This document shows positions 11,937-58,858 of a stretch of 64,000 nucleotides of DNA, one piece after another. The stretch lies in the NCBI RefSeq assembly GCF_018417595.1, contig NZ_CP070982.1, positions 186,001 through 250,000 on the forward strand, in the 5' to 3' direction. Positions within the stretch are counted from its first letter, which is position 1. Each line of letters opens with the position of its first letter. The stretch is from Pseudomonas entomophila. GTDB taxonomy: Bacteria > Pseudomonadota > Gammaproteobacteria > Pseudomonadales > Pseudomonadaceae. The notes beneath the pieces are model-generated. The model was not told the DNA's origin and did no database searches. It was given only the letters and a program-made list of their open reading frames with translations. The translations under genes and the position numbers were made by a program.

Positions 11937-12013
11937 TGGCGCACTCGGCGGGATTCGAACCCACGACCCCTGCCTTCGGAGGGCAGTACTCTATCCAGCT
12001 GAGCTACGAGTGC
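11937..12013 (-). tRNA. tRNA-Arg (anticodon CCG)
   Basis: The 77-nt cloverleaf reads from the minus strand. The acceptor stem pairs GCACTCG with CGAGTGC, and the D-arm is GCTCAGCTGGATAGAGT. The anticodon stem CTGCC/GGCAG encloses the loop CTCCGAA (anticodon CCG, decoding CGG). The T-arm contains GGTTCGAATCC, and the CCA end is encoded. It is followed by a strong terminator. Confidence 0.97.
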
Positions 12014-12092: not shown

Positions 12093-12181
12093 CTGCAGGA
12101 GCGGCTTCAGCCGCGATCATCCGCGAAGCGGATGCCAGGTGCCGCGCTGCCTGCATCGCGGCTGAAGCCGCTCCTACAAGG
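12093..12181. repeat. REP pair (inverted) upstream of the gntR operon
   Basis: Two copies of the 'GGAGCGGCTTCAGCCGCG' type face each other, with a small internal hairpin (ATCCGCGAAGCGGAT) between them. The pair lies between tRNA-Arg and the gntR promoter region. Confidence 0.88.
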
Positions 12182-12271: not shown

Positions 12272-12287
12272 ACTTGTTATAACAAGT
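12272..12287. promoter_or_regulatory. Perfect 16-bp palindrome, probable GntR/HutC-type operator
   Basis: ACTTGTTATAACAAGT is its own reverse complement. It lies 21 bases before the gntR ATG, where it would overlap the promoter or early transcript. The CTTGT...ACAAG arms resemble known operators of the HutC/UTRA subgroup of GntR regulators, which the adjacent gene belongs to. Autoregulation is inferred. Confidence 0.7.
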
Positions 12288-12308
12288 CAGCCAACAGCGA
12301 AGACAACC

Positions 12309-13058
12309 ATGGCCGAACTGCTCCCCCTCTCTCCCGTACCGCTCTACACCCAGCTCAAGGAGCTGCTGCGCGAGCGCATCCTCGACGGCAGCTATCCACC
12401 CCACAGCCGCATGCCTTCGGAAAACGAACTGGGCAAGGTGTTCGACGTCAGCCGCATCACCGTGCGCCAGGCGCTGGGCGACCTGCAGAAGGAAGGGCTG
12501 ATCTTCAAGATCCATGGCAAGGGCACCTTCGTCGCCAAGCCCAAGGCGTTCCAGAACGTCAGCACCCTGCAGGGCCTGGGCGAGTCGATGACGCAGATGG
12601 GCTACGAAGTGCTCAACCGCCTGCGCAGCTTCCGCCATGTGCCGGCCAGCGCACTGGTGGCGGCGCGGTTGCAGGTCGAGGAAGGTGCATGGGTCACCGA
12701 GATTCGCCGCGTTCGCCTGATCAACCGGGAGCCGGTGTCGCTGGAACTGACCTGGCTGCCGAAAAGTGTCGGTGAAAAGCTGGAAAAGGCTGACCTGGTG
12801 ACCCGTGACATCTTCCTGCTGCTGGATAACGACTGCGGCATCGCCCTCGGCCACGCGGACCTGGCCATCGACGCGGTGCTTGCCGACAGCGACCTCACTC
12901 AGGCCCTGGAGGTGGAGGAGGGCTCGCCGATCATGCGCATCGAGCGCCTGACCCATGCCGCCGACGGTACGCCGCTGGACTTCGAACACCTCTACTACCG
13001 TGGCGACGCCTTCCAGTACCGCCTGCGCATCGACCGCCAGAGGGGCTCCAAGGTATGA
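12309..13058 (+). CDS. GntR family regulator with UTRA domain (HutC subgroup)
   Basis: This is a 249-residue DNA-binding protein. The N-terminal winged helix spans residues about 8-75 (YTQLKELLRERILDG, then MPSENELGKVFDVSRITVRQ with the recognition helix, and GKGTFVAKP). A UTRA effector-binding domain spans residues about 95-240 (IRRVRLINREPVSLELTWLP and FEHLYYRGDAFQYRLRIDRQ). It overlaps the next gene by four bases (ATGA), so it is the first gene of the AprBA-like operon and probably its repressor. The start is the ATG just after the palindrome; the frame is open further up but crosses the REP pair. The ligand is unknown and is probably the substrate of the flavoprotein. Confidence 0.9.
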   Translation: MAELLPLSPVPLYTQLKELLRERILDGSYPPHSRMPSENELGKVFDVSRITVRQALGDLQKEGLIFKIHGKGTFVAKPKAFQNVSTLQGLGESMTQMGYEVLNRLRSFRHVPASALVAARLQVEEGAWVTEIRRVRLINREPVSLELTWLPKSVGEKLEKADLVTRDIFLLLDNDCGIALGHADLAIDAVLADSDLTQALEVEEGSPIMRIERLTHAADGTPLDFEHLYYRGDAFQYRLRIDRQRGSKV

Positions 13059-14779
13059 ACATCCAGCCTCAGGACTACGACATCGTCGTCATCGGTGGCG
13101 GAACCGCCGGGCCCATGGCCGCGATCAAGGCCAAGGAGCAGGACAAGCAACTGCGTGTGCTGGTGCTGGAGAAGGCCAACGTCAAGCGCAGCGGCGCCAT
13201 CAGCATGGGCATGGATGGCCTGAACAACGCCATCGTTCCCGGCCACGCCACACCCGAGCAATACACCAAGGAAATCACCGTCGCCAATGACGGCATCGTC
13301 AACCAGGCCACCGTGCATGCCTACGCCACCCGAAGTTTCGAGACCATCGAGCAGCTCGATCGCTGGGGGGTGAAGTTCGAGAAAGACGAGACCGGCGACT
13401 ACGCGGTGAAGAAGGTGCACCACATGGGGGCCTACGTACTGCCGATGCCCGAGGGCCACGACATCAAGAAGGTGCTCTACCGCCAACTCAAGCGCGCGCG
13501 AGTCGAGATCAGCAACCGCATCGTCTGCACCCGCGTGCTGCTCGATGACCAGGGTGCCGCGGCTGGCGTGCTCGGCTTTGACTGCCGCACGGGTGAGTTC
13601 CGGGTGATCCGCGCCAAGGCGGTGATCCTCGCCTGCGGCGCGGCCGGGCGCCTTGGCCTGCCGGCGTCGGGCTATCTGATGGGCACCTATGAGAATCCCA
13701 CCAACGCGGGTGACGGTTATGCCATGGCCTACCACGCCGGCGCCGAGCTGGCGAACCTGGAGTGTTTCCAGATCAACCCATTGATCAAGGACTACAACGG
13801 CCCGGCCTGCGCCTACGTCACCGGCCCGCTCGGTGGCTACACCGCCAACAGCAAGGGCGAGCGCTTCATCGAGTGCGACTACTGGAGCGGGCAGATGATG
13901 TGGGAGTTCCACCAGGAGCTCGAAGGCGGCAATGGCCCGGTGTTCCTCAAGCTCGACCACCTGGCCGAGGAAACCATCCAGAACATCGAAGAGATCCTGC
14001 ACGGCAACGAGCGCCCCAGCCGTGGCCAGTTCCACGCCGGGCGCGGCACCGACTATCGCCAGCACATGGTGGAGATGCACATCTCGGAGATCGGCTTCTG
14101 CTCCGGGCATTCGGCTTCTGGGGTGTGGGTCAACGACAAGGCCGAGACCAGCGTCAAGGGCTTGTACGCCGCAGGCGACATGGCCGCGGTGCCGCACAAC
14201 TACATGCTCGGCGCCTTCACCTATGGCTGGTTCGCCGGGGTGAATGCCGCGCAGTACGTGGCCGGGCGCGAGTTCGCCGAGGTCGATGCCGGGCAGGTCG
14301 AGCGCGAGCAGGCACGGGTGTTCGCGCCGCTGCATCGCGAGCATGGGCTGGCGCCGGCCCAGGTCGAGTACAAGCTGCGGCGCATGGTCAATGACTACCT
14401 GCAACCGCCGAAGGTGACGAAGAAGATGCAGATCGGCCTGGCGCGCTTCGCCGAAATCGAGCGGGACCTGGCGCAGATGAAAGCCAGCAACCCCCACGAA
14501 CTGATGCGGGCGATGGAGGTCACGGTGATCCGCGACTGCGCCGAGATGGCGGCGCGGGCGTCGCTGTTCCGTGAAGAGAGCCGTTGGGGGCTTTATCACC
14601 ACCGGGTCGATTTCCCTGAGCGCAACGATGGCGAATGGTTCTGCCATTGCCACCTGAAAAAAGGTGAGAACGGCGAAATGACCAGTTTCAAGAAGGCGGT
14701 CGAGCCGTACCTGATCCCGCTGGATGCCCAGGAACAGAGCGCCTACGACCGCTTACGGGTAAAAACCAACGCCGCCTAG
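13055..14779 (+). CDS. AprA-like FAD oxidoreductase (fumarate reductase/APS reductase alpha family)
   Basis: This is a 574-residue flavoprotein of the fumarate reductase / succinate dehydrogenase / adenylylsulfate reductase alpha superfamily. FAD-binding motifs are DIVVIGGGTAGPMAA at residues 9-23, a MGMDGLNNA segment, and the late TSVKGLYAAGDMAAVPHN stretch. That stretch corresponds in position to the FAD/active-site region of AprA, where a conserved histidine lies. The C-terminal helical domain ends in a cysteine pair, FCHCH. No signal peptide is present, so it is cytoplasmic. The next gene encodes an AprB-like ferredoxin, which argues for an AprBA-type pair. It is not the usual aerobic APS reductase (CysH), and the true substrate is unknown. 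Annotation as plain fumarate reductase would be misleading. Confidence 0.8.
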   Translation: MNIQPQDYDIVVIGGGTAGPMAAIKAKEQDKQLRVLVLEKANVKRSGAISMGMDGLNNAIVPGHATPEQYTKEITVANDGIVNQATVHAYATRSFETIEQLDRWGVKFEKDETGDYAVKKVHHMGAYVLPMPEGHDIKKVLYRQLKRARVEISNRIVCTRVLLDDQGAAAGVLGFDCRTGEFRVIRAKAVILACGAAGRLGLPASGYLMGTYENPTNAGDGYAMAYHAGAELANLECFQINPLIKDYNGPACAYVTGPLGGYTANSKGERFIECDYWSGQMMWEFHQELEGGNGPVFLKLDHLAEETIQNIEEILHGNERPSRGQFHAGRGTDYRQHMVEMHISEIGFCSGHSASGVWVNDKAETSVKGLYAAGDMAAVPHNYMLGAFTYGWFAGVNAAQYVAGREFAEVDAGQVEREQARVFAPLHREHGLAPAQVEYKLRRMVNDYLQPPKVTKKMQIGLARFAEIERDLAQMKASNPHELMRAMEVTVIRDCAEMAARASLFREESRWGLYHHRVDFPERNDGEWFCHCHLKKGENGEMTSFKKAVEPYLIPLDAQEQSAYDRLRVKTNAA

Positions 14780-14791
14780 GCGCCACAGATT

Positions 14792-14883
14792 CCTGTAGGA
14801 GCGGGTTTACCCGCGCATGCGTCCGCCAGGACGACGACGTTGCTCCTGCTGACGCCTTCGCGGGTAAACCCGCTCCTACAGGG
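14792..14883. repeat. REP pair inside the AprBA-like operon
   Basis: Two REPs of the 'GGAGCGGGTTTACCCGCG' type face each other between the flavoprotein and ferredoxin genes. In mRNA they could form a long hairpin that affects the relative levels of the two subunits. Confidence 0.9.
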
Positions 14884-14933
14884 AATGTGGACACCTTCGA
14901 TCAAGAGGGCCTCAGGCCCCGAGGATTTGTGAA

Positions 14934-15179
14934 ATGGCCCACCAACCCCAGGAAATCTTCTTTCGCAGCAGCGCCCCGGTCACCATCGATGAAGACAAGT
15001 GCATCGCCGAAAAAGGTTGCACGGTCTGCGTCGAGGTCTGCCCCATGGACCTGCTGGCGATCAACCCGGCCACCCAGAAGGCCTACATGGCCTTCGACGA
15101 GTGCTGGTACTGCATGCCCTGCGAAAAGGATTGCCCGACCGGCGCGGTCAAGGTCGACATTCCCTACCTGCTGCGCTGA
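14934..15179 (+). CDS. AprB-like 2x[4Fe-4S] ferredoxin
   Basis: This is an 81-residue ferredoxin-type protein. Cysteines at 23, 29, 32 and 36 (CX5CX2CX3CP) and at 57, 60, 63 and 67 (CWYCMPCEKDCPTGAV) can hold two [4Fe-4S] clusters. The six-residue-wide first spacing, the MDLLAINPATQKAY linker and the DECWYCMPCEKDCP motif resemble the cluster domain of AprB rather than common bacterial ferredoxins. It lacks the C-terminal tail that AprB wraps round AprA. It should pass electrons to the upstream flavoprotein. GAGG precedes the ATG. Confidence 0.85.
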   Translation: MAHQPQEIFFRSSAPVTIDEDKCIAEKGCTVCVEVCPMDLLAINPATQKAYMAFDECWYCMPCEKDCPTGAVKVDIPYLLR

Positions 15180-15201
15180 ACCCTGCGCCAAGGATCGCCC
15201 C

Positions 15202-16170
15202 ATGACAGAACGACACAGCGACAACCCCGATATCCTGGCATTGCTGCCACGCCTCGGCGATGCCGATGCCGGCGTACGGCGCATCGCCTTGATCGCCCTG
15301 GCCGATCTGGAAGAACCGGACGGATTGCCATGGCTGACCGATGCCCTGCTGGCCGACCCTGCCGAGGAGGTCCGCGCCGAGGCTGCGCGCCTGCTGGAAG
15401 CCTGGGAGGACGGCGAAGCGGTCCAGGCGCTTTGCGCCGCTCTGGCTGACGCCGCCGAACCCGTGCGGCTGGCCGCCGCGCAGAGCCTGGCCGAGCTCAA
15501 GAGCCTGGAGGTTGGCCACCTGATCTTGCCATGGGCCATGCACGCCGATGCCTTCGTGCGCGCCAGTGCCTTGCGCGCCCTGCGCGAGCTGCGTCTGGAG
15601 GAGGCTGCCGCGCCTGCGCTGCTGGCGTTGCACGATCCGGACGCCGCCGTGCGCCGTGAGGCCGTGGGCATCCTCGGGTGGCTCAAGCATGTCGCCGCCT
15701 TGCCCGACCTGGCGCGACTCGCCGTCGAGGAGCCGGACACCGACGTGCGCCGTGCCGCTATCGGTGCCTTGGGCCTGGCCCGCGATGCCAGTGTGCTGCC
15801 GGGCTTGATCACCGCGCTGGCCGATCCTGCGTGGCAGGTACGTGAAGAGGCTGCCACCACATTGGGCAAAGTGGGCCAGGCCGACGCGGGCCTGGCCCTG
15901 GTCGAGGCCCTGACGGACGGCTACTGGCAGGTACGCCTGCGCGCGGCGCGCTCGCTCGGGCGCTTGCGCCATGGGGCGGCGCTGGAACCATTGGCTGGCC
16001 TGCTGGGGCATGCCATCGCCAACCTGCGCAAGGAGGCTGCCCTGGCCCTTGGCGAACTGGGACTGGCGCAGGCCCTGCCGGCGTTGCAAGCGGCGCAGGC
16101 CGACGCTGATCCAGAGGTGCGCAAGGCGGTGCGTATCGCACTGGCGCAGTTGCAGGGCCTGGGCCGATGA
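15202..16170 (+). CDS. HEAT-repeat protein
   Basis: This is a 322-residue soluble protein built almost wholly of HEAT/PBS-lyase type repeats of about 31 residues. Each follows a pattern like DPxxxVRxxAxxALGxL; roughly nine can be counted (for example DPAEEVRAEAARLLEAW, DTDVRRAAIGALGLA and DPAWQVREEAATTLGKV). No catalytic residues are expected. The family acts as scaffolds or adaptors, and in some cases as chaperones for cofactor attachment. AAGGA lies before the ATG and the gene overlaps DUF971 by four bases, so it belongs to the operon. A role in assembling the Fe-S/FAD pair is inference only. Confidence 0.85.
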   Translation: MTERHSDNPDILALLPRLGDADAGVRRIALIALADLEEPDGLPWLTDALLADPAEEVRAEAARLLEAWEDGEAVQALCAALADAAEPVRLAAAQSLAELKSLEVGHLILPWAMHADAFVRASALRALRELRLEEAAAPALLALHDPDAAVRREAVGILGWLKHVAALPDLARLAVEEPDTDVRRAAIGALGLARDASVLPGLITALADPAWQVREEAATTLGKVGQADAGLALVEALTDGYWQVRLRAARSLGRLRHGAALEPLAGLLGHAIANLRKEAALALGELGLAQALPALQAAQADADPEVRKAVRIALAQLQGLGR

Positions 16171-16442
16171 GCGTGCCGAGCGCGGTGCGCAATCTGCCGG
16201 GGGCCGGCGAGCTGCAGGTGCAGTGGCCGGAAGGGCCGCAGCTGCTCGGCCATGTTCGCCTGCGCGGCGCCTGCCCGTGTTCGACGTGCCGGGCGGCGAG
16301 GTTGAAAGGGGCTGTCGCTCTGGTTGCGCAGGATGTTCGGATAGTGCGTGTCGTGCCCCAAGGCTACGGCCTGCAGCTGGTGTTCAGCGATGGGCACGAA
16401 CGCGGCATCTTCCCCTGGAGCTATTTGCGCGGCCTGGGTTGA
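16167..16442 (+). CDS. DUF971 family protein
   Basis: This is a 91-residue single-domain protein of the DUF971 family, the N-terminal module of gamma-butyrobetaine hydroxylase-like proteins. The cysteine motif GACPCSTCR fits a zinc or Fe-S site, and the C-terminal YGLQLVFSDGHERGIFPWSY is diagnostic. DUF971 is often found near Fe-S cluster carriers, which would fit an operon encoding a two-cluster ferredoxin. It is coupled to the HEAT gene (ATGA overlap) and is the last gene of the operon. Confidence 0.85.
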   Translation: MSVPSAVRNLPGAGELQVQWPEGPQLLGHVRLRGACPCSTCRAARLKGAVALVAQDVRIVRVVPQGYGLQLVFSDGHERGIFPWSYLRGLG

Positions 16443-16632: not shown

Positions 16633-17496
16633 CTACAGCGCGATGAGCTCCGGGCGCAGCCCTTCCACGCGCAAGGGCGCAGGCTTTATGCAGGCCTGGC
16701 CACCGGTGATCTGATGCAGGACCTTCTCCCGCAGCCCGTGCAGCGCCACGCCGGTACGTTGGCGTGGATGCGGCAGGTCGATCGGCACCACGGACTTGAT
16801 CCGCCCGGGGCGTGGCTCCAGCACCACCACCCGGTCGGCGAGGTAGGTGGCCTCTTCGGCATCATGGGTCACCAGCAGGGTGGTGATGCCAGAGCGCTCG
16901 CGGATCGCCAGCAATTCGTCCTGCAGTTGCTGGCGGGTCAATGCATCCAGTGCGCCGAACGGCTCGTCCAGCAACAGGATCCGTGGGCTGGCCACCAAGC
17001 CGCGGGCGATGGCCACGCGCTGGGCCATGCCGCCGGACAACTGGTGCGGGTAGGCCGATTCGAAACCGGTTAGTCCCACCAGCTGCACGTATTCATGCAC
17101 GCGTCGGGCGCGTTCACCCTGGGTGAGGTGTTCGTTGACCAGGCCCAGGGCGATGTTCTGTTCGACGGTCAGCCAGGGGAACAGGCGGTGCTCCTGGAAC
17201 ACGATGCCGCGCTCGCCACCGATACCCGTGACCGGCTTGCCGTCGACCCGGATGCAGCCGCTGTAGTCGCTGTCCAGCCCCACCAGCAGGCGCAGCAGGG
17301 TGGACTTGCCGCACCCCGACGCACCGACGATGGCGATGAACTCGCCCTCGTCGATCGCCAGGTTGAAGTCGCGGATGGCCTCGAAGGCCTGGCCGTCGAC
17401 GCTGAAAGTCTTGCCGACCCCTTCGAAGCTGACCAGCGGTTGGGTGGCGTCGGGTTGGTTGGCCGCGTGCAGGGCCGGGGCTATGAAAGCATTCAT
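16633..17496 (-). CDS. atsC: Sulfate-ester ABC transporter ATP-binding protein AtsC
   Basis: This is a 287-residue ABC ATPase of the nitrate/sulfonate/taurine group. Walker A is GASGCGKST, the signature is LSGGMAQRVAIARGL and Walker B is [13 protein letters not shown]; the H-loop is LLVTHDAEEA. It energises the fused permease AtsB, whose gene overlaps its start by four bases. Placement with atsR and atsK follows the atsRBC system described in P. putida S-313. No arylsulfatase (atsA) follows it here. Confidence 0.82.
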   Translation of the reverse strand: MNAFIAPALHAANQPDATQPLVSFEGVGKTFSVDGQAFEAIRDFNLAIDEGEFIAIVGASGCGKSTLLRLLVGLDSDYSGCIRVDGKPVTGIGGERGIVFQEHRLFPWLTVEQNIALGLVNEHLTQGERARRVHEYVQLVGLTGFESAYPHQLSGGMAQRVAIARGLVASPRILLLDEPFGALDALTRQQLQDELLAIRERSGITTLLVTHDAEEATYLADRVVVLEPRPGRIKSVVPIDLPHPRQRTGVALHGLREKVLHQITGGQACIKPAPLRVEGLRPELIAL

Positions 17497-19076
17497 GCGG
17501 ATCTCCAGCGCGTGGCGCGCGATTCGAGGCGTTGGCCGAGCTGGCCGAGCAGGGCGCCGACCAGGCCGATCAGGACCATGGCGGCCATCACCTGGTCCAT
17601 GCGGAACAATTGCTGGGCACCGATCATCAGGCTGGCGATACCACCGTCCGAGGGCATGAAGTACTCGGCGCCGATGGTACCGAGCCAGGCATAGATCAAC
17701 GCCAGGCGCAGGCCAGCGAAGATGGCCGGGGCGGCGCCGGGCAGCACCAGCAAGCGCAGGCGGTGGGGCAGGTCCAGGCGCAGGGCCTGCGCTGCCTCGC
17801 CGAGTTGCGGCGAGAGGCTGGCGATGCCGCGCTGGGTGGCGATCAGTAGCGGGAAGAACGCCGCCAGGCCGACGAACACCAGCTTGGCGCCTTCGCCCAG
17901 GCCGAACCAGGCGGTCAGCAACGGTACCCAGGCGAACAGCGCCACTTGGCGCAACGCCGACAGGCTGGGGCCGAGCAGGCGTTCGGTGGTGTGCGACAGG
18001 CCCAACAGCAAGCCCAGGGCGAAGCCCGCGCCGCCGCCGATCAGCAACCCGGCGAGTGTGCGTTGCAGGCTCAGGCGCAAGGCCTCGGGCAGCGAGCCGC
18101 TCATCAGCCCGTGATACAGACTGCGCAGCACATCCAGCGGTGAACTGAGGATGTTGGCGTCGACCCAGCCAAAGCTGTTGGCCGCCTGCCACACCACCAA
18201 CACCACCGCAGGCAGCAACAGGCTCTGCCAGCTGTTCGTGGCGTTGCCGCGCGCCTGTTGGCCCATGGCCGGTTGAGGCCAGAACAGCAGGCGGCGTTCC
18301 AGGCGCGAGAAGCCGCGATCCATCAAGGCGCCGACCAGGCCGATCACCAGTATGCACAGGAACACCAGGTCGAGCATGAACAGCTGGCGCCCCCAGACCA
18401 TCAGGTAGCCGATGCCCTCGCTGGAGGCCAGCAGCTCCACCGCCAGCAAGGAAGTCCAGCCGGTCGCCAGGGCCAGGCGAACCCCTGCGAGGAATGCCGG
18501 CAGGGCGGCCGGCAACAACAGGCGCAGGAATACCAGGTGGGCGGGCAAACGCAGGGTGGCGGCAGCTTCACGCAGCTTGGGCTGGGCATCGCGCACACCG
18601 ACCAGGGTGTGCAGGGTGACCGGCACCACCACGGCCTTGACCAGCACCACCAGCTTGAGCAGCTCGCCGATGCCGAAGAACAGCATGAACAGCGGGATCC
18701 AGGCCAGGGTCGGGATCTGCGCCAGGGCGATGAAGGTTGGCAGCACCAGCGTCTGCGCTCTCTGCGACGCGCCAAGCCAGGTCCCCAGCAGCAACCCGCT
18801 GGCGATCCCCGCCAAAAGTCCCCAGATCAGCCGTTGCAAACTTATCCACAGATGCCCCCAGAGCTCTCCGGAGCCGAATTCCAGGGCGCTCTGCCAGACC
18901 AGCGACGGCGCGGGCAGGATCTGCTCGCTCATCCAGTGTTCACGGCTGGCGATAATCCACAATGCCACCACCGCCAACGGCACAATCCACGGTACGCAGG
19001 AGCGGCCTTGTGCCGCGAAAGGGCTGTGTAGCGGCCCCAATCGACGGCGCTGGCCTACGCTCAAGACTTCGCTCAT
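17493..19076 (-). CDS. atsB: Fused double permease AtsB of the sulfate-ester ABC transporter
   Basis: This is a 527-residue inner-membrane protein made of two consecutive BPD_transp_1 modules, each about 250 residues. The EAA-type loops are LREAAATLRLPAHLVFLRLL in the first half and LGEAAQALRLDLPHRLRLLV in the second. Most related importers (SsuC, TauC) use two copies of a 260-residue subunit; here the dimer is one chain. GAGAGG before the ATG at 19076 supports the start. Residues about 13-27 are encoded by a REP-like sequence. The gene is divergent from atsR and overlaps atsC. Confidence 0.85.
   Translation of the reverse strand: MSEVLSVGQRRRLGPLHSPFAAQGRSCVPWIVPLAVVALWIIASREHWMSEQILPAPSLVWQSALEFGSGELWGHLWISLQRLIWGLLAGIASGLLLGTWLGASQRAQTLVLPTFIALAQIPTLAWIPLFMLFFGIGELLKLVVLVKAVVVPVTLHTLVGVRDAQPKLREAAATLRLPAHLVFLRLLLPAALPAFLAGVRLALATGWTSLLAVELLASSEGIGYLMVWGRQLFMLDLVFLCILVIGLVGALMDRGFSRLERRLLFWPQPAMGQQARGNATNSWQSLLLPAVVLVVWQAANSFGWVDANILSSPLDVLRSLYHGLMSGSLPEALRLSLQRTLAGLLIGGGAGFALGLLLGLSHTTERLLGPSLSALRQVALFAWVPLLTAWFGLGEGAKLVFVGLAAFFPLLIATQRGIASLSPQLGEAAQALRLDLPHRLRLLVLPGAAPAIFAGLRLALIYAWLGTIGAEYFMPSDGGIASLMIGAQQLFRMDQVMAAMVLIGLVGALLGQLGQRLESRATRWRSA
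18996..19038. repeat. REP element inside the atsB coding region
   Basis: The sequence GGAGCGGCCTTGTGCCGCGA followed by AAGGGC matches the REP variant also present at 49308-49380. It is read in frame as GPLHSPFAAQGRSC in the N-terminal cytoplasmic tail of AtsB, before the first membrane helix. Confidence 0.8.
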
Positions 19077-19374
19077 CAAGGCACCTCTCAAACCATTCCT
19101 TGTTTATTCGTTTATGGAATTAAAAATTCTCACAAGCGATATTCAAGAGATAAGAGCATGCGCCCGCTGCATGCGAAAGCCCCAAGCCATTGCGTTTTCC
19201 TCATATTTTCCATGCGTGCACTGCAAGTCATCCGCCGGCCCGCATGACGTCTGGTTTATGTCTTCTGGTTACTAAAAAATGAAGTTTTGATCTTTGTAGG
19301 TTCTAACTCGACCTGCCTAGCTTCTGGCCAAAGCGCCGGCCATCGCCGGTGGCAGCCTGCCCAGGAGCCTCGCC
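19077..19374. promoter_or_regulatory. Divergent atsB / atsR regulatory region with GAATTAAAAAT block
   Basis: This is an AT-rich interval of about 300 bases between divergent genes. GAATTAAAAAT at 19117-19127 is identical to the block at 22512-22522 before sftP. Twenty-odd bases later GAGATAAGAGC could be a promoter or activator half-site. Control by a LysR-type activator (SftR and/or CysB) is inferred from the setting. Confidence 0.5.
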
Positions 19375-20424
19375 ATGAAGACCCGATTCCGCCACCTGCT
19401 CACCCCCCTGCTGGCCGGCCTGCTCAGTGCCTTGCCAGTGGCTGCCCACGCGGTCCAGCCCGAGGTCATTCGTATCGCCGTCCCGGACCTGAGCGCCGGC
19501 AGCAAGCCCAGCGCCGGAGGCGTGGTCGACGTACTGCGCGCCCAGCAGCTGCTTGAGAAGGCGTTTGCCAAGGACGGCATTCGCATCGACTGGCACTTCT
19601 TCAAGGGCGCAGGCCCTGTGGTCAACGAGGCACTGGCCAACGGCCAGGCCGATTTCGCCTACCTCGGTGACCTGGCCGCGATCATCGGCAAGGCCAACGG
19701 CCTCGACACCCGCGTGTTGTCTGCCGGGGTGCGCGGCGTGAAGAGCTACCTTGGCGTGGTGCCGGGCTCGGGCATCCACAGCCTGCAGGACCTCAAGGGC
19801 AAGCGCGTTGCAGTGTTCCGGGGTACCGCCAACCAGCTGTCGTTCGCCAGCGCCCTGGCCAGCCAGGGGTTGTCCGAGCGTGAGCTGAAGGTGATCAACC
19901 TGGACTTCAACGCCGCCAACGCCGCACTGGCCGCCAAGCAGATCGACGCCACCTGGGGGCTGTCCAACTTGCTGTCGCTGCGTGAGCGTGGCCTGGTCGA
20001 GCTGCCGGTCAACTCCCGCGACCTCAAGGGTGCCGGCGGCACCCAGTCCGTGCTGATCGGCACCGGTGAGTTCATCCGCCAGCACCCCGACCTGGTGCAG
20101 CGCCTGGTCACCGCCCAGCAGCAGGCGGTGAAGTGGTTGCAGAACGAACACAACCGTGACGCCTACGTGGACTTGGTGTCGACCCAGGCCAACTGGCCAC
20201 GGGCGATCCTGCGCGACGACCTGGCCCAGGAAAACCTGGCCCGTTACTTCGACCCACGCCTGGATGCCGAATTCGTCGGCCTGCTGCAGCAGGGCGTCGA
20301 CCTGGCCGCCAAGGAGCGCCTGATCCGCCGTGGCTTCCAGGTCGCCGACTGGATCGAGCCTCGCTTCCTCGAAGCCGCCCTGCAACAGGACCAGGCCACC
20401 CAGGCCACCCAGGCCGCCCGCTGA
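19375..20424 (+). CDS. atsR: Sulfate-ester-binding periplasmic protein AtsR
   Basis: This is a 349-residue substrate-binding protein of the SsuA/TauA superfamily. The signal peptide ends at LPVAAHA. The ligand-binding fold is recognised by FFKGAGPVVNEALANGQADF, then LGDLAAIIGKANG, the hinge segment DLKGKRVAVFRGTANQLSFA and VINLDFNAANAALAAKQIDA. The C-terminus ends in a short QAT repeat (QATQATQA). It should deliver sulfate esters to AtsBC, encoded on the opposite strand. CAGGAG precedes the ATG. It is co-transcribed with atsK, 37 bases downstream. Confidence 0.82.
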   Translation: MKTRFRHLLTPLLAGLLSALPVAAHAVQPEVIRIAVPDLSAGSKPSAGGVVDVLRAQQLLEKAFAKDGIRIDWHFFKGAGPVVNEALANGQADFAYLGDLAAIIGKANGLDTRVLSAGVRGVKSYLGVVPGSGIHSLQDLKGKRVAVFRGTANQLSFASALASQGLSERELKVINLDFNAANAALAAKQIDATWGLSNLLSLRERGLVELPVNSRDLKGAGGTQSVLIGTGEFIRQHPDLVQRLVTAQQQAVKWLQNEHNRDAYVDLVSTQANWPRAILRDDLAQENLARYFDPRLDAEFVGLLQQGVDLAAKERLIRRGFQVADWIEPRFLEAALQQDQATQATQAAR

Positions 20425-20461
20425 ATCCGAACCCCGACAAGAAACCGTGAGGAGCACGACC

Positions 20462-21367
20462 ATGAGCAACGCCGCACTGGCCACCACGCCGCAAGCCCTC
20501 GAACTCGACATCCAGCCCGTTGCCGGACGCATCGGTGCTGAGATCCGAGGCATCAAGCTGTCCGCCGATCTGGACCCCGCCACTATCGAGGCCATCCAGG
20601 CCGCGCTGGTGCAGCACAAGGTGATTTTCTTCCGCGCCCAGGACCACCTTGACGACCAAGGCCAGGAGGCCTTCGCCCAGTTGCTCGGCGAGCCCATCGC
20701 CCACCCCACCGTGCCGGTGGTCGACGGCACGAGTTACCTGCTCCAGCTCGATGGTGCCGAAGGCCAGCGGGCCAACTCCTGGCACACCGACGTGACCTTC
20801 GTCGATGCCTACCCCAAGGCCTCGATCCTGCGTAGCGTGGTGGCCCCGGCCTCGGGTGGCGACACGGTATGGGCCAACACCGCCGCGGCTTATCAGGAAT
20901 TGCCTGAGCCACTGCGCGAACTGGCCGACAAGCTGTGGGCGGTGCACAGCAACGAGTACGACTATGCCAGCGTCAAGCCGGATGTCGACCCGGCCAAGCT
21001 CGAGCGCTACCGCAAGGTGTTCACCTCGACGGTGTACGAGACCGAGCACCCGGTGGTGCGGGTGCATCCGATCAGTGGCGAGCGGGCGTTGCAGCTGGGG
21101 CACTTCGTCAAGCGCATCAAGGGTTACTCGCTGGCGGATTCGCAGCATCTGTTCGCGCTGCTGCAGGGGCATGTGACACGCCTGGAAAACACCGTGCGCT
21201 GGCGCTGGCAGGCAGGTGACGTGGCGATCTGGGATAACCGCGCCACGCAGCACTACGCGGTGGATGACTATGGTACCCAGCCGCGCATCGTGCGCCGGGT
21301 GACCCTGGCCGGGGAAGTGCCGGTGGGGGTGGATGGGCAACTCAGCCGAACGACCCGCAAGGGCTGA
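20462..21367 (+). CDS. atsK: Alpha-ketoglutarate-dependent alkylsulfatase AtsK
   Basis: This is a 301-residue Fe(II)/2-oxoglutarate dioxygenase that cleaves medium-chain alkyl sulfate esters to aldehyde plus sulfate. The metal triad is complete: His108 and Asp110 in NSWHTDVTF and His264 in RATQHYAVDDY. The 2-oxoglutarate arginine lies in RIVRRVT (about 279). Residue numbers and flanking sequence match AtsK of P. putida S-313. TauD is the nearest paralogue (49406-50239) but differs in its substrate-loop region. GAGG lies before the ATG. Confidence 0.9.
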   Translation: MSNAALATTPQALELDIQPVAGRIGAEIRGIKLSADLDPATIEAIQAALVQHKVIFFRAQDHLDDQGQEAFAQLLGEPIAHPTVPVVDGTSYLLQLDGAEGQRANSWHTDVTFVDAYPKASILRSVVAPASGGDTVWANTAAAYQELPEPLRELADKLWAVHSNEYDYASVKPDVDPAKLERYRKVFTSTVYETEHPVVRVHPISGERALQLGHFVKRIKGYSLADSQHLFALLQGHVTRLENTVRWRWQAGDVAIWDNRATQHYAVDDYGTQPRIVRRVTLAGEVPVGVDGQLSRTTRKG

Positions 21368-21420
21368 TGCCAGCGTAGATCTTTGTGGGAACAACCTTGG
21401 TCTTGAGGTTGGCGCGGTCT

Positions 21421-21496
21421 CTGTGGGAGCGGGCTTGCCCGCGAATACGATGGTGGCTTCACCGCCGCTTTCGCGGGCAAGCCCCGCTCCCACAGG
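21421..21496. repeat. REP pair between converging atsK and sftR
   Basis: Two inverted copies of the GGAGCGGGCTTGCCCGCG type enclose a short spacer. It lies between converging genes and could protect both mRNA 3' ends. Confidence 0.9.
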
Positions 21497-21511
21497 TTGA
21501 GTGAAAACCCC

Positions 21512-22426
21512 TCAGATTTCGGCATCGCAGGCCACCAGTTGCCTGACCAACCCCTGCGCCAACGCCGACAACCCATACCCCACCCGGCTCACCACGCCAT
21601 ATCGCGTGTAGAACGCCTCTTCCTGCTCCGGCGCCAAGTCCGCCAGCTCGAGCGCCACCAACCCCCGCTCCCCCTGGTACGGCCGCAGGTTCGCGTTGCA
21701 GGCGATGCCGATGGTGTCCGAGTGCAGCACCACATTGAGCAGCGCATAGCCGTGCTCGCATTCCACGCTGGGTAGAAAGTCCTGCCGACCACTGAGATCA
21801 CTGAGGATCTTGCGGATGTTCGGCGGGCGAAACGTGGTGGCCAATGGGTATTCGAACAGGTCCCGCGCCTGTACTTCGGCATGCTCGGTCAGCGGGTGGC
21901 TGGCACGGCAGCAGAAGTGCCAGCGCTGTGGCTTGAGTTTGAGCACCTGATAATCCGGATCGGCCTCGAACTGGCGAGTATCGGCCACGAAGAATTCGAT
22001 TTCCTCGGCGACCAATCGCCGGTTCAGTGCCTGCCAGTTATCCACCTGGAAACAGGTGCGCGCCGCCGGGTATTCGGCAACGAATCGCGCCACCGCGCGA
22101 GGCACCAGCCCACCGGCTGGCGCCGGTCCCGAGCCGAAGCGCACCACGCCTGTGGTCGCGCCATTGAACTGGTTGATCTCGTTGGCCAGGTTGTGCGCCC
22201 CATGCACCAACCGCCGCGCATGCTCCAGCACCAGCAGCCCCTGACGAGTCGGCGCCAGCTCCTTGCTGGCGCGGTCGACCAGGCGGCAGCCGACGTTGTG
22301 TTCCAGCGTCTGGATGCTGCGGCTGAAGGCCGATTGCGAAAGGTTCACCGCAGCCGCCGCAGCCACGAAGCTGCGGTGTTCGACAAGGGCGATGAAGTGG
22401 CGGAGCTGGCGCAGGTCGATATGCAT
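21512..22426 (-). CDS. sftR: LysR-type regulator of sulfate-ester metabolism SftR
   Basis: This is a 304-residue LysR regulator. The N-terminal winged helix (residues 1-60) contains LRHFIALVEHRSFVAAAAA and LSQSAFSRSIQTLEHNVG. The remainder is the periplasmic-binding-like effector domain. It is divergent from the TonB receptor gene sftP and next to atsRK, the arrangement reported for SftR of P. putida S-313, which controls sulfate-ester genes. The assignment rests on context and product family. Confidence 0.8.
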   Translation of the reverse strand: MHIDLRQLRHFIALVEHRSFVAAAAAVNLSQSAFSRSIQTLEHNVGCRLVDRASKELAPTRQGLLVLEHARRLVHGAHNLANEINQFNGATTGVVRFGSGPAPAGGLVPRAVARFVAEYPAARTCFQVDNWQALNRRLVAEEIEFFVADTRQFEADPDYQVLKLKPQRWHFCCRASHPLTEHAEVQARDLFEYPLATTFRPPNIRKILSDLSGRQDFLPSVECEHGYALLNVVLHSDTIGIACNANLRPYQGERGLVALELADLAPEQEEAFYTRYGVVSRVGYGLSALAQGLVRQLVACDAEI

Positions 22427-22619
22427 TTTCTACATGGAAACTTTCGGTGGAATGCAATTGCTGGGAAGGGTTGGGAACCTTATAAAGGGACTTACTTATT
22501 CCACAAAATATGAATTAAAAATATTTATATCTCTTAAAAGAATATAAGCCCGTCCGACCGCGATTCGGTTCCGCCAACGGAAATGCTCGCCAGGGCCCAT
22601 GCCTTCAAGGAGCATTTGC
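22427..22619. promoter_or_regulatory. Divergent sftR / sftP regulatory region
   Basis: This is an AT-rich stretch between the divergent genes. GAATTAAAAAT at 22512-22522 repeats the block in the atsB/atsR region. Further down, CTTAAAAGAATATAAGC (about 22535-22551) could hold a promoter -10. AAGGAG at 22607-22612 is the sftP ribosome-binding site. Confidence 0.5.
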
Positions 22620-24953
22620 ATGTCCCGACTTTCCCGTTGGCCCGCGCGCATATCGTTGTTCGCCTTGCAGCCCTTGGCAGCCGGTGTGTTGCTGGCCGCC
22701 GCCGGCGCCACGTTCGCCGAAGAACCCACTCCAGCGCCTGCTGTCGAGCAGGACGCCAAGCTCGGTACTGTCACCGTCAATGCCCGGCGCCGTGAGGAAA
22801 CCGCCCAGAGCGTGCCCACGCCGATCAGCGTGCTGAGCAGCGAAACCCTGGAAACCCAACGCATTTACCGGGTGCAGGACCTGCAGCAACTGGTGCCGAG
22901 CACCAACGTGTCCTACGTGCACGCCCGCCAGTCGAGCATTTCCATCCGTGGCCTGGGCAACAACCCGGCCAGCGATGGCCTGGAGGGCAGCGTCGGTGTG
23001 TACCTGGACAACGTCTACCTGGGCCGCCCCGGCATGGCGGTGTTCGACCTGCTCGATGTCGAGCAGCTGGAAGTGCTGCGCGGCCCGCAGGGCACACTGT
23101 TCGGCAAGAACACCACCGCCGGGGTGCTGAACATCACCACGCGCAAGCCGACCTTCCACCAGGAAGGCAGCGTGCAGTCTTCCCTCGGTGAGGATGGCTA
23201 CTGGCAGACCCTGGGCAGTTTCTCAGGCCCCCTCACCGACACCCTCGCCGGGCGCATCAGTGCCTACCACACCGAAGACGACGGCTATGTGAAGAACATC
23301 CACGACGGCCACGACCTCAACGGCGGCAAGCGCCAGGGCTTTCGCACGCAGTTGCTGTTCAAGCCCAACGAGACGTTCAACTTGCGCTGGATCGGCGAGT
23401 ACAACGAGGAGAACTCCGACAACGGCATCCTCAGCCTCTACAGCACCGGCCCGACCATCAACGGTGTGAACCGCTACGAAACCCTGGCCGCCCAGGCCGG
23501 GGCGACCCTGGTGTCGGGCAAGGACCGCAAGGTCAACTTCGACGCCGACCAGATGGTCAAGGTATTCCAGGGCGGCACGTCGATAGAGGCCAACTGGACG
23601 CTGCCCAACGACTTCACCCTCACCTCCATCAGCGCCTACCGCTGGTGGGATTTCACCCCGCGCAACGATGACGGCCTCAACGTGCCGGTGTTCTACAGTG
23701 CCGGGGTGTCGGTGCGGGACAAGCAGTATTCGCAGGAAATTCGCCTGGCCTCGCCCACCGGCGGCTTCTTCGACTACGTGCTGGGCGCGTACTACTTCAA
23801 GCAGGACCTGGACAACAAATCGTTCACTTACTATGGGCCGCAGGCCGATATCTGGAACCTGACCCCGGCCGGTGCCCTGGCCAATGTGAATACTATTGGC
23901 AATGGCCACATCGACACGGACAGCTATGCGCTGTTCGCCCAGGGCACCTGGCACCTGACCGAACGCTTGGACTTCACCGCCGGAGTGCGCGGCACCTACG
24001 AAGAGAAGAGTGCCTGGGTTACCCGCGATGCGCCCTACGGTGGTGCCGCGGTGGCCGGTGCTGCGGCCACGGCCCGACAGGGCCGGGTGGGCGCTTACGA
24101 TTCGGGCGACCTCAACCAGTACAGCTTCGCCCCGTCCGGCCTGCTCAGCCTGAGCTACCGCTTCACCGACGACCTGCTGGGCTATGCCAGCCTGTCCCAT
24201 GGCGAGAAGTCCGGGGGCGTCAACCTGACCGTCGGCGCCGCGCCACGGCTGGGCACCGATTCGCTGCTGGTGGGCACCGAGCGCGCCAACAACGCCGAAC
24301 TCGGGCTCAAGAGCACCTTGTTCGACAACCGTCTGCAACTCAACACCAACCTGTTCTGGACCGAAGTGCACGGCTACCAGGCCAACGTCTACGACGAAGC
24401 CAACCGCGTGCAATACCTGGCCAACGCTGGCAGCGTGCGTTCGCGTGGCCTGGAGTTCGAGGCCACGGCCCTGCCGATCCGTGGTCTTACGGTGAACTTC
24501 AACGGTTCATGGAACGACGTGCGCTACACCGACTACAAGGACGCGCCGTGCCCGCCCGAGGTGAGCCTGGCCAACCCCGCGGCCACCTGCGACCTGTCTG
24601 GCCACCAGGTGGTTGGCGCCTCCAAGTACATCGCCAACCTCAACGGGCAGTACAAGTGGCAACTGGCCGAGCGCATCGAGCCCTACGTCACCGCCAGCTA
24701 TGCCTTCCGCTCCAAGGCGGTGGGCACCATCGACGACTCCGACTACGGCCAGATCCCCAGCTACGCCATCGTCAACCTCTCCACCGGCGTGCGCCTGGAC
24801 CAGGGCGACGGCGTGCTCGACCTGTCGCTATGGGTGAAGAACGCCGGCGACAAGACCTATTTCACCAGCCTGTGGAACTCCGCCAACGGCGGCTATGCCG
24901 GCGTGCTGGGCACCCCGCGCACCGTGGGCGCCACCGCCCGCTACGACTTCTGA
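22620..24953 (+). CDS. sftP: TonB-dependent outer-membrane receptor SftP
   Basis: This is a 777-residue TonB-dependent receptor. A signal peptide ends near ATFAEEP. The TonB-box region (GTVTVNARRREE) and the plug domain follow (TPISVLSSETLE, IRGLGNNPAS, then VEQLEVLRGPQGTLFGKNTT). A beta-barrel ends in the aromatic terminus ATARYDF. The start at 22620 follows AAGGAG; an upstream in-frame ATG does not. The gene is 17 bases from astA in one operon and divergent from sftR. It probably takes up sulfate esters through the outer membrane; substrate assignment follows the S-313 system. Confidence 0.82.
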   Translation: MSRLSRWPARISLFALQPLAAGVLLAAAGATFAEEPTPAPAVEQDAKLGTVTVNARRREETAQSVPTPISVLSSETLETQRIYRVQDLQQLVPSTNVSYVHARQSSISIRGLGNNPASDGLEGSVGVYLDNVYLGRPGMAVFDLLDVEQLEVLRGPQGTLFGKNTTAGVLNITTRKPTFHQEGSVQSSLGEDGYWQTLGSFSGPLTDTLAGRISAYHTEDDGYVKNIHDGHDLNGGKRQGFRTQLLFKPNETFNLRWIGEYNEENSDNGILSLYSTGPTINGVNRYETLAAQAGATLVSGKDRKVNFDADQMVKVFQGGTSIEANWTLPNDFTLTSISAYRWWDFTPRNDDGLNVPVFYSAGVSVRDKQYSQEIRLASPTGGFFDYVLGAYYFKQDLDNKSFTYYGPQADIWNLTPAGALANVNTIGNGHIDTDSYALFAQGTWHLTERLDFTAGVRGTYEEKSAWVTRDAPYGGAAVAGAAATARQGRVGAYDSGDLNQYSFAPSGLLSLSYRFTDDLLGYASLSHGEKSGGVNLTVGAAPRLGTDSLLVGTERANNAELGLKSTLFDNRLQLNTNLFWTEVHGYQANVYDEANRVQYLANAGSVRSRGLEFEATALPIRGLTVNFNGSWNDVRYTDYKDAPCPPEVSLANPAATCDLSGHQVVGASKYIANLNGQYKWQLAERIEPYVTASYAFRSKAVGTIDDSDYGQIPSYAIVNLSTGVRLDQGDGVLDLSLWVKNAGDKTYFTSLWNSANGGYAGVLGTPRTVGATARYDF

Positions 24954-51916: not shown

Positions 51917-52888
51917 TCAGTTGGGCAGGTATTGGGCGCTGACGTAGGGCGAGTAGTCCGGCAGCACGGCTTCGACCTTGCCCTGTTGCTTGAGGAAGGT
52001 GGCGGTGTCGGTCAGTGCCTGGGTGGTCGGCGCGCCCAGGGCGCTGGCCTGGTCGGCGGCCAGCGGGTAGACGTTGCCCTGCAGCAGCACCGGGATGTCG
52101 GCCGGCTTGGCGCCGGACAGTTTGACCAGCTTGGCGACGTTGTCTTTGTCGGCCAGCCACGCCTGCGGGTCCTTGCGGTAGTCGGCGTAGGCGTCGAGGG
52201 TCACCTTGGCGAACGACCTGACGATCTCGGGGTGCTTGGCGGCGAAGTCCTTGCGCACGATCCAGGCGTCGAAGGTCGGCGCGCCTTTCTCGGCCAGCTC
52301 GCCAGAGGTGATCAGCACCTTGCCGTTCTCCTTGGCCACGCCCAGGGCCGGGTCCCAGACGTAGGTGGCATCGATGTCGCCGCGCTTCCAGGCAGCGATG
52401 ATCGCCGGTGGCGTCAGGTTGAGGATCTGCACCTTCGAGGGGTCGATATTCCAGGCCTTCAGCGCGGCCAGCAGGCTGTAGTGGCCGGTGGACACGAAAG
52501 GCACGGCGACTTTCTTGCCGACCAGGTCCTGTGGGGTCTTGATGCTGTCGCGGGCGACCAGCGCCTCGCCGGCGCCGATCTGGGTGGCGATCAGGAAGGT
52601 CTCGACCGGCAGCTTGCGGGTGGCGGCGGCGGCCAGGGGGCTGGAGCCGAGGTAGCCGATCTGCACGTCGCCCGAGGCCACGGCGGTGATCACGTCGGCG
52701 CCGTTATCGAACTTGCGCCAGTCGATGCTGGCCTTGCTGTCCTTTTCATAGGTGCCATCGACCTGGGCCACTTTGGCCGGGTCGACGGTGGTCTGGTAGG
52801 CGACGGTCAGGTCGGCGGCCTGGGCCAACCAGCTGGCGCCGGCGAGGGTCAGGGCGGCGAACAGGCGCAGCGGAGCATGCGGGATCAT
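51917..52888 (-). CDS. tauA: Taurine-binding periplasmic protein TauA
   Basis: This is a 323-residue binding protein. The signal peptide ends at WLAQAADL. Taurine-binding family segments are [20 protein letters not shown], then [29 protein letters not shown] and [19 protein letters not shown]. It is the first gene of tauABCD. The upstream region is AT-rich, as expected for sulfate-starvation control. Confidence 0.93.
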
Positions 52889-56673: not shown

Positions 56674-57639
56674 ATGCGCACAGTCTTCTTGCGTCGCGGT
56701 CTGGTCGCCCTGTTTGCGGCGGCTGTATCCTTCGGCGCCATCACCCAAGCCCAGGCCGAGAGCCTGCGCATCGGTTACCAGAAATACGGCACCCTGGTGC
56801 TGCTCAAGGCCAAGGGTTCGCTGGAGAAGCGCCTGGCCGAGCAAGGCATCCAGGTGCAATGGACCGAATTCCCCGGCGGCCCGCAGCTGCTCGAAGGGCT
56901 CAACGTCGGCTCCATCGATTTTGGCGTGACCGGTGAAACGCCGCCGGTGTTCGCCCAGGCCGCAGGCGCCGACCTGCTCTACGTCGCCTACGAACCGCCG
57001 GCGCCGCACAGCGAGGCGATCCTCGTGCCCAAGGGCTCGCCGATCCAGTCGGTGAAAGAGCTCAAGGGCAAGAAAGTCGCCTTCAACAAGGGTTCGAACG
57101 TTCACTACCTGCTGGTCCGCGCCCTTGAAGACGCCGGCCTCACCTACGCCGACATCCAGCCGGTCTACCTGCCGCCCGCCGACGCCCGCGCCGCCTTCGA
57201 GCGCGGCAGCGTCGATGCGTGGGTGATCTGGGACCCGTACCAGGCTGCCGCCGAGCAGCAGCTGCAGGCCCGCGTGCTGCGTGATGGCAAGGGCCTGGTC
57301 GACAACCACCAGTTCTACCTCGCCACCCGCGGCTATGCCACCCAGCATCCGGCGGTGATCAACACCCTGGTCGAGGAAGTGCGCGCCGTGGGCCAGTGGT
57401 CCCAGGCCAACCCGCAGCAGGTCACAGACCAGGTCGCGCCGCTGCTCGGCCTGCCCGCCGACATCACGCTCACCTCGGTGAAGCGCCAGGGTTACGGCGC
57501 TGGGCCGCTGACCCCGGAGGTCATCGCCGCGCAGCAGAAGATCGCCGACACCTTCACCGCCCTGAAGCTGATCCCCAAGCCCTTGAGCATCAAGGACGTG
57601 ATCTGGACACCCCCGGCCAAGGTCGCCAGCGCGCCTTGA
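56674..57639 (+). CDS. ssuA: Aliphatic sulfonate-binding protein SsuA
   Basis: This is a 321-residue periplasmic binding protein. The signal peptide ends at TQAQAESL. SsuA signatures are LRIGYQKYGTLVLLKAKGSL, then FPGGPQLLEGLNVGSIDFG, GETPPVFAQAAGADL and WVIWDPYQAAAEQQLQARVL. AGGAG precedes the ATG. It delivers aliphatic sulfonates to SsuCB. Confidence 0.94.
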   Translation: MRTVFLRRGLVALFAAAVSFGAITQAQAESLRIGYQKYGTLVLLKAKGSLEKRLAEQGIQVQWTEFPGGPQLLEGLNVGSIDFGVTGETPPVFAQAAGADLLYVAYEPPAPHSEAILVPKGSPIQSVKELKGKKVAFNKGSNVHYLLVRALEDAGLTYADIQPVYLPPADARAAFERGSVDAWVIWDPYQAAAEQQLQARVLRDGKGLVDNHQFYLATRGYATQHPAVINTLVEEVRAVGQWSQANPQQVTDQVAPLLGLPADITLTSVKRQGYGAGPLTPEVIAAQQKIADTFTALKLIPKPLSIKDVIWTPPAKVASAP

Positions 57640-57698
57640 ACGATTCGCCGCGCCGGGGCGCCGCCCTGGCTTGAGCCACCCTTGAGGAGACAACTCCA

Positions 57699-58847: not shown

Positions 58848-58858
58848 GGACCGAGGCC

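Follow-up and report, generated by a model that had tools for sequence, protein, structure and literature searches.

An AprBA-like flavoprotein–ferredoxin module with a distinct active site in Pseudomonas entomophila and distant bacteria: a candidate ferredoxin-driven reductase of an organosulfur anion

What reaction is carried out by a two-subunit enzyme built like adenosine 5′-phosphosulfate (APS) reductase, AprBA, in a bacterium that already has a CysH-type APS reductase? The question is raised by an operon at positions 12272 to 16442 of a 64,000-nt stretch of the genome of Pseudomonas entomophila (contig NZ_CP070982.1, positions 186,001 to 250,000; this whole stretch is hereafter the window, to which unprefixed positions refer). 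A sequence-only reading of the window described five genes here: those of the AprA-like flavoprotein A, the AprB-like ferredoxin B, a HEAT-repeat protein and a DUF971 protein, placed under that of a GntR/UTRA regulator; these assignments, all on the forward strand, are borne out, as is the presence of a CysH-type APS reductase in the same genome (281.8 bits). Comparison of the sequences indicates that the genes belong to a conserved module that is AprBA-like in build and has a distinct active site. We regard it as close to an even bet (probability about 0.45) that the operon encodes the enzyme core of a ferredoxin-driven reductase that acts on an imported organosulfur anion and releases sulfite.

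Protein A (574 aa, 13055..14779), a predicted flavin adenine dinucleotide (FAD) protein, scores far above the cut-off of the NCBIfam model NF006131 (PRK08275; 1136.7 bits against 587), which is labeled fumarate reductase/succinate dehydrogenase, and reaches 878.6 bits with PRK13800, a family of A-HEAT fusions with a cut-off of 1196. Its nearest relatives of solved structure by sequence are the 3′-phosphoadenosine 5′-phosphosulfate (PAPS) reductase of Methanothermococcus (MtPAPSR; PDB 8a8o), the closest match, and AprA (1jnr), with 31% identity over 517 columns in a profile-profile alignment of A with AprA/PAPSR. The relatives of B (81 aa, 14934..15179; PF12838), a predicted ferredoxin with two [4Fe-4S] clusters, include aprB, HgcB and the PAPSR β subunit. 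Eight cysteines and the motif DECW[YF]C are kept in 43 of 43 aligned rows of B, the Trp of this motif aligns with a Trp of the β subunit from Ilyobacter, and the protein ends in a conserved IP[YF]L where AprB has its C-terminal tail. The AprBA-like core proposed earlier is supported. Since A and B do not reach the cut-offs of aprA (TIGR02061, 187.2 bits against 641.75) and aprB (TIGR02060, 35.3 bits against 135.65), the pair is AprBA-like and not AprBA.

In a tree of 48 rows, from which 11 further rows were left out for size, the 32 rows of the NF006131 family form one group with weak support (60/89). A long inner branch (5.97) sets this group off from 10 AprA and 2 PAPSR rows, and it stands apart from the host SdhA and NadB, the TcuA of Cupriavidus metallidurans CH34 and an FRD-like protein; the root is unsure because the outgroup rows are very long. 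Whether A might lie inside the fumarate reductases or L-aspartate oxidases, a question raised from the sequence alone, is answered in the negative for the rows used. A structure model of A is poor (mean predicted local distance difference test, pLDDT, 57.7; residues 195-357 mostly below 50), and the fold ranking obtained from it, with 8a8o first, 1jnr second and Sdh/Frd structures behind, therefore carries little weight.

The active site, whose comparison had likewise been proposed, was aligned for 39 proteins of the family and 14 AprA sequences, with the numbers of Arg265 and Trp234 taken from an alignment to 1jnr; the pairing of the Arg and His positions was the same in the profile-profile alignment. 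In AprA, Arg265 and His398 are catalytic; in SdhA and NadB, the His of the QxH motif is the substrate His, and another His of SdhA holds the covalent flavin. All 39 family rows have Leu at the position of AprA Arg265 (Mt Arg237; Leu243 in A), Tyr at that of Trp234 (Mt Trp206) and His at that of His398 (Mt His346; His352 in A), and all 39 replace the QxH His by Asn and the covalent-FAD His by Gly. With AprBA (1jnr, 2fja, 3gyx) the module thus shares the subunit design, the active-site His, the cluster motifs and the Trp of B, whereas it differs in the Leu and Tyr just named, the absent AprB tail and the scores below both cut-offs. The positions of Lys120, Arg121 and Ser122 in the PAPS loop of MtPAPSR are occupied by Val (V121, 39/39), His (H122, 39/39) and either His (33 rows) or Arg (6 rows), so that neither these residues nor Arg237 are kept. 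According to the accessible part of the description of MtPAPSR (PMC10322725), that enzyme resembles the module in its FAD-binding α subunit and small β subunit with two [4Fe-4S] clusters and a conserved Trp (Trp42, the proposed electron conduit), retains the catalytic residues of APS reductase and owes its PAPS-reductase traits to Ser122, Lys120 and Arg121; the enzyme described there includes no HEAT protein, importer or GntR regulator. A is therefore neither a typical fumarate reductase or aspartate oxidase nor a typical APS or PAPS reductase. Around the active-site positions, many residues do not vary among the phyla sampled, a pattern suggestive of a single, conserved substrate.

The gene set is more than a chance assembly because it recurs in distant phyla, namely Proteobacteria, Cyanobacteria and Actinobacteria. 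A diverse set of 40 loci, which are phylogenetically non-independent, was composed of 20 plasmid regions (drawn from 55 matching records; two carry no annotation) together with 20 regions of genomes (8 of 61 Pseudomonadaceae matches, all 4 class-level matches besides the window and 8 of 14 phylum-level matches outside the Pseudomonadaceae), and companion genes were called by tblastn at E ≤ 1e-6. A, B and HEAT occur together in 40/40, with B within 2 kb of A in 37. The genes for a substrate-binding protein (SBP), a permease and an ATPase of an ATP-binding cassette (ABC) importer lie within 8 kb of A in 35/40; DUF971 was found in 26 loci, GntR in 25 (again within 8 kb of A), CRP in 10 and an Mrp/NBP35-type gene in 6, of which the four in cyanobacteria adjoin HEAT (a DUF971 domain inside the cyanobacterial Mrp was not found in the three proteins tested). 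Among the best 80 of 584 Pseudomonas loci, GntR lies within 8 kb of A in all 80, and B is present in 79, HEAT in 75, DUF971 in 74 and the importer in 68; no CRP or Mrp gene was found in these 80, and five of them (L039, L040, L081, L082 and L084), four short or ending early, are among those without HEAT or importer matches. The distribution across genomes is patchy: 61/198 Pseudomonadaceae, 5/274 at the class level and 21/398 at the phylum level (each count including the window genome), and 3/240 Alphaproteobacteria including the centre genome; in 14 control genomes nothing exceeded the cut-off.

The linkage of A, B, HEAT and DUF971 outside close relatives, on which the idea of a four-gene system depended, thus holds in distant phyla, yet four genes give an incomplete view because a dedicated ABC importer stands between B and HEAT in 68/80 Pseudomonas loci and belongs to the module. 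The HEAT protein (15202..16170; PF13646), which matches residues 612-896 of PRK13800, had been taken for a possible maturation factor. It was found by match in 39 of the 40 diverse loci and is fused to A in the remaining one, the actinobacterial locus L093; a second actinobacterial fusion, in L137, was recognized from the length of the open reading frame together with the HEAT match. These fusions and the PRK13800 family favor the reading of HEAT as a partner of A over that of a general maturation factor.

The direction of the reaction is suggested by genes for electron supply. FdxA (17/40) and ferredoxin-NADP reductase (FNR; 12/40) accompany the module in several lineages of the diverse set, and in two loci, Acidithiobacillus plasmid pTcM1 and L149, a large NfnA/GltD-like flavoprotein takes their place. 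In L151 and L152, a set of six genes, rnfABCDGE, lies directly 3′ of FdxA on the same strand (L151:10990-16010 and L152:11236-16359), downstream of the order GntR-A-B-HEAT-FdxA. In aerobes, the usual task of FNR and Rnf is to provide reduced ferredoxin. That three unrelated sources of reduced ferredoxin occupy equivalent places of the gene order speaks for a low-potential reductase.

The importer gives a clue to the substrate. Its SBP is SsuA/TauA-like, with the best score for SsuA (112.4 bits, below the cut-off of 163.5), and family domains including NMT1/THI5. The order B-SBP-permease-ATPase-HEAT is found in 68/80 Pseudomonas loci; in the window and in L014-L018, L020 and L022 the cassette is absent and HEAT directly follows B, with the junction at 15180..15201 in the window. 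No close SBP is encoded elsewhere in the genome of the window, where the search gave four matches of 27-32% identity. On a quick tree of GntR and A from 31 loci, presence of the cassette changes four times, and well-supported branches force at least two of these changes; the junctions, too, vary between loci (in L014 the junction falls at a short CATCCG repeat). Within the P. putida group, the cassette has apparently been lost repeatedly. The core genes are under purifying selection in loci without the importer: the ratios of nonsynonymous to synonymous substitution rates (dN/dS) against L015, L016 and L073, the last of which keeps the importer, are 0.06-0.08 for A, 0.01-0.03 for B, 0.15-0.18 for HEAT and 0.13-0.37 for DUF971. 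One may guess that another transporter, perhaps the neighboring ats-like one, has taken over import. The SBP (L088:11049-12476 and homologs) also shows a NosL-like C-terminal domain in 8 of 11 proteins tested, in four of them over the cut-off of 24 bits and in four more weakly (for the other three none was reported). A role in copper binding was considered and dropped, and none is claimed here, because no conserved Cys or Met was seen in the NosL-like part of the alignment; a structure model of the SBP was discarded (mean pLDDT 48.9).

Under the favored reading, the substrate would most likely be an organosulfur oxyanion (R-SO3- or R-O-SO3-) brought in by the SsuA/TauA-like ABC importer that the lineage of the window has lost. 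Low-potential electrons from NADPH or the membrane would reach FdxA by way of ferredoxin reductase, Rnf or an Nfn-like flavoprotein, and the two [4Fe-4S] clusters and conserved Trp of B would pass them on to the FAD of A. The substrate would be attacked by the reduced flavin in a pocket with a family-specific lining in which the AprA-type His is preserved, and sulfite would go to assimilation or export. HEAT would be an obligate partner of A, the DUF971/GBBH-like_N protein (16167..16442; PF06155, 65.9 bits), a possible Fe-S factor, or Mrp would load the Fe-S clusters, and GntR would act as a repressor until its ligand binds.

A link of the module to a sulfur compound is plausible in view of several neighborhoods. 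YeiH is encoded in 10/40 diverse loci (PF03601 confirmed in 5/5 scanned). Six of these loci, all from a single Pseudomonadaceae clade, and three cyanobacteria have the gene within the cluster, and in L156 the distance is about 7 kb; in L141-L143 and L145-L147 the gene is in line with the operon. TauE/SafE is encoded in 4/40, within three cyanobacterial clusters and, in Aquabacterium, upstream of GntR. In Salmonella, YeiH is the main driver of sulfite resistance according to the available portion of PMC12880088. In Cupriavidus, genes for an FMN monooxygenase and an SsuA-family SBP lie nearby; the Paraburkholderia locus has an SsuD-like oxidoreductase and a 3-mercaptopropionate dioxygenase as neighbors, and that of Sinorhizobium a sulfonate ABC transporter and TauD. 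Five neighboring proteins scanned in three other loci included no sulfur genes, and 20 selected neighbors in non-annotated loci showed no pattern apart from the rnf genes. The window itself encodes SsuA, SsuD, SsuC and TauA over the family cut-offs and a fused-permease sulfonate-type transporter below them, which we take to be of the kind named ats. The position beside a sulfate-ester island, to which the sequence-only reading had pointed, is a local feature, given that a sulfonate/sulfate-ester transporter adjoins the operon in 15/80 Pseudomonas loci; the broader suggestion of a sulfur substrate keeps its plausibility. The organosulfur genes of the window form a dense region (16633-24953, 51917-52888 and 56674-59656) with the fused-permease ABC transporter, a LysR regulator, a TonB receptor, TauA and SsuA/SsuD/SsuC.

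Several observations weigh against an organosulfur substrate. The substrate Arg of AprA is gone from the family, so that sulfuryl chemistry may not be retained; YeiH and TauE occur in a minority of loci, which are not independent (6/10 YeiH loci belong to one clade); and no YeiH, TauE, FdxA or FNR gene was found in the 80 Pseudomonas loci nearest the window. Nitrate and other anions are also transported by members of the importer family, and a GntR regulator with a specific ligand would suit a catabolic substrate no less than a sulfur source. Furthermore, genes for a TRAP transporter, an amidohydrolase, an FAD-linked oxidase and an aldehyde dehydrogenase adjoin a third AprBA-like pair (L234:8641-10616, 29% identity), beside which no sulfur gene is evident, so that an AprBA fold does not imply sulfur.

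The chief competitor of the organosulfur reading, which we consider a distinct possibility short of a favorite, is the same low-potential module acting on a sulfur-free substrate, such as an acid (aromatic, heterocyclic or unsaturated) or a different oxyanion, by reduction of a C=C bond or ring. The L234 pair and the NMT1/THI5 domains of the importer family favor it, Rnf, FNR and Nfn-like supply would suit any hard reduction, reduction of C=C bonds or rings is known for other FAD_binding_2 enzymes, and UTRA regulators sense small ligands. Against it stand the importer SBP with its best score for SsuA, the recurrence of the sulfite exporters YeiH and TauE in some clusters, and the release of sulfite by the nearest characterized enzymes, as stated in the accessible text of PMC10322725. 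Even with a sulfur-free substrate, a conserved ferredoxin-driven enzyme paired with HEAT, and with an rnf set in two loci, would pose a biochemical question of its own.

To return to the organosulfur reading, its most specific form is an oxygen-independent sulfonate or sulfate-ester reductase derived from AprBA that, in aerobic bacteria and cyanobacteria, would cleave off the SO3 group reductively by way of a flavin-sulfite adduct, driven by low-potential electrons that ferredoxin receives from Rnf, FNR or Nfn-like donors, with an obligate HEAT partner, a dedicated importer and a sulfite exporter; taken as a whole, this is doubtful. SsuD and TauD cleave C-S bonds with O2. The Ssu/Tau systems belong to the same ABC importer superfamily and are encoded in the same window, whereas no oxygenase is among the conserved genes of the module. 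If O2-free reduction of sulfonates or sulfate esters were confirmed, it would constitute a reductive route of sulfur assimilation beside SsuD, TauD and the sulfatases, with relevance to soils, rhizospheres and cyanobacteria. Anaerobic assimilation of a sulfonate as a concept has a counterpart in Rhodobacter capsulatus, where, according to the part of PMC11423573 available, isethionate is assimilated by a nitrogenase-like system; its enzymes, nitrogenase-like and radical SAM proteins, are unrelated to the module.

Operation in the oxidative direction, in which an imported reduced sulfur compound would be oxidized with transfer of electrons to ferredoxin, is improbable. AprBA works both ways in nature, oxidatively in sulfur oxidizers, and the module is present on an Acidithiobacillus plasmid; on the other hand, the usual role of FNR and Rnf is the supply of reduced ferredoxin, the APS-type Arg is absent, and the gene tables of the 18 annotated plasmid loci, incomplete as they are, name no ATP sulfurylase nearby.

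Identity with AsfA/AsfB, the arylsulfonate reductase-ferredoxin pair of P. putida S-313 that feeds an oxygenase, was entertained at first because the order reductase-ferredoxin-SBP resembles A-B-SBP; it now seems very improbable. The accessible part of PMC4267179 describes asfRABC as a reductase/ferredoxin, a substrate-binding protein, an ABC transporter and a LysR regulator, and reports loss of arylsulfonate use in an asfA mutant; the system is also treated in the available portions of PMC10441942 and PMC9694294. By these descriptions, asf shares with the module a reductase, a ferredoxin and a sulfonate-type importer, and differs in its electron chain to an oxygenase and its LysR regulator, the regulator in the window being GntR. 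AsfA/AsfB of C. metallidurans CH34 are Rmet_4334/5 in the part of PMC2864759 available, and the CH34 genome gives three matches to A at E ≤ 1e-12, all 26-29% identical and none a family member. The pair is thus probably not AsfA/AsfB, since a bacterium reported to carry asfAB lacks the NF006131-like family, an argument that is strong without being complete; the name AsfA is also absent among the names shown for the 239 listed matches, many of which are unnamed or carry shortened names. A TcuA/TcuB-like pair of CH34 (L206:13507-16222, at 793.5-796.2 kb of CHR2) lies near the expected place of Rmet_4334/5. From locus-tag spacing only, one might guess that the two are the same, and AsfAB of CH34 may be a TcuAB-type system.

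That the operon encodes an APS or PAPS reductase, assimilatory or dissimilatory, is hardly credible, even though 8a8o and AprA are its closest solved relatives and an Ilyobacter AprA-like/ferredoxin pair is encoded between cysC and cysD. The Leu at the position of Arg265 and the V-H-H/R loop speak against it, as do the long branch between A and the AprA and PAPSR rows and the CysH-type enzyme already present in the host. The module also lies outside a sulfate-activation operon in the 18 annotated plasmid loci, near which, within their incomplete gene tables, no cysC, cysD or cysN is named. The Ilyobacter plasmid genes (L231:5378-10709: cysC, AprA-like, ferredoxin, cysD and a GTP-binding protein) look like an assimilatory PAPS reductase operon.

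The automatic name, fumarate reductase, succinate dehydrogenase or a close relative, is very unlikely to be right despite the NF006131 label and the FAD_binding_2 and C-terminal domains that A shares with such proteins, since Gly and Asn replace the two His residues, no Sdh/Frd iron-sulfur or anchor gene was seen in the module and the host SdhA and NadB lie elsewhere in the tree. A search of protein clusters with A gave at least 6,454 at E ≤ 1e-60 among 8,000 candidates scored, and the named clusters among the matches listed mostly carry this label, although the active site fits neither enzyme.

No account of the module was found in the literature searched, whose coverage excludes most subscription papers, so that the earlier suggestion of an undescribed system stands within that coverage. 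PRK13800 gave a single match, PMC8401276, of which the available part concerns mycorrhizal fungi, and the accessible parts of PMC13352529 and PMC3506598 contain nothing on the module.

Regulation of the operon is likely exerted through a perfect 16-bp palindrome, ACTTGTTATAACAAGT (12272..12287), as the operator of the GntR/UTRA (HutC-type) protein encoded at 12309..13058 (PF00392 and PF07702). A palindrome with at most two mismatches to the consensus ACTTGTYATRACAAGT, which was written after viewing the same loci, lies upstream of GntR in 81/81 Pseudomonas loci including the window, and with at most three mismatches in 20/23 other loci; the mean control fraction of matches is 0.001.

Within the operon, ATGA overlaps join GntR to A and HEAT to DUF971, as expected from the overlaps or short gaps described earlier; the gap between A and B is not short, as it measures 154 nt and contains an inverted repeat (14792..14882, read by eye from the sequence). 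This repeat, and another upstream of GntR (12095-12179), are presumably of the REP type. A gene for tRNA-Arg(CCG) lies just upstream of the operon on the reverse strand (11937-12013), and one is found within about 1 kb upstream in 16 of the 22 Pseudomonas loci scanned. On a Nostoc plasmid (L136:886-19683), A is located among genes for a HAD hydrolase, a methyltransferase, a GNAT protein, a FosA-like protein and an amidase, an arrangement like that of a biosynthetic cluster.

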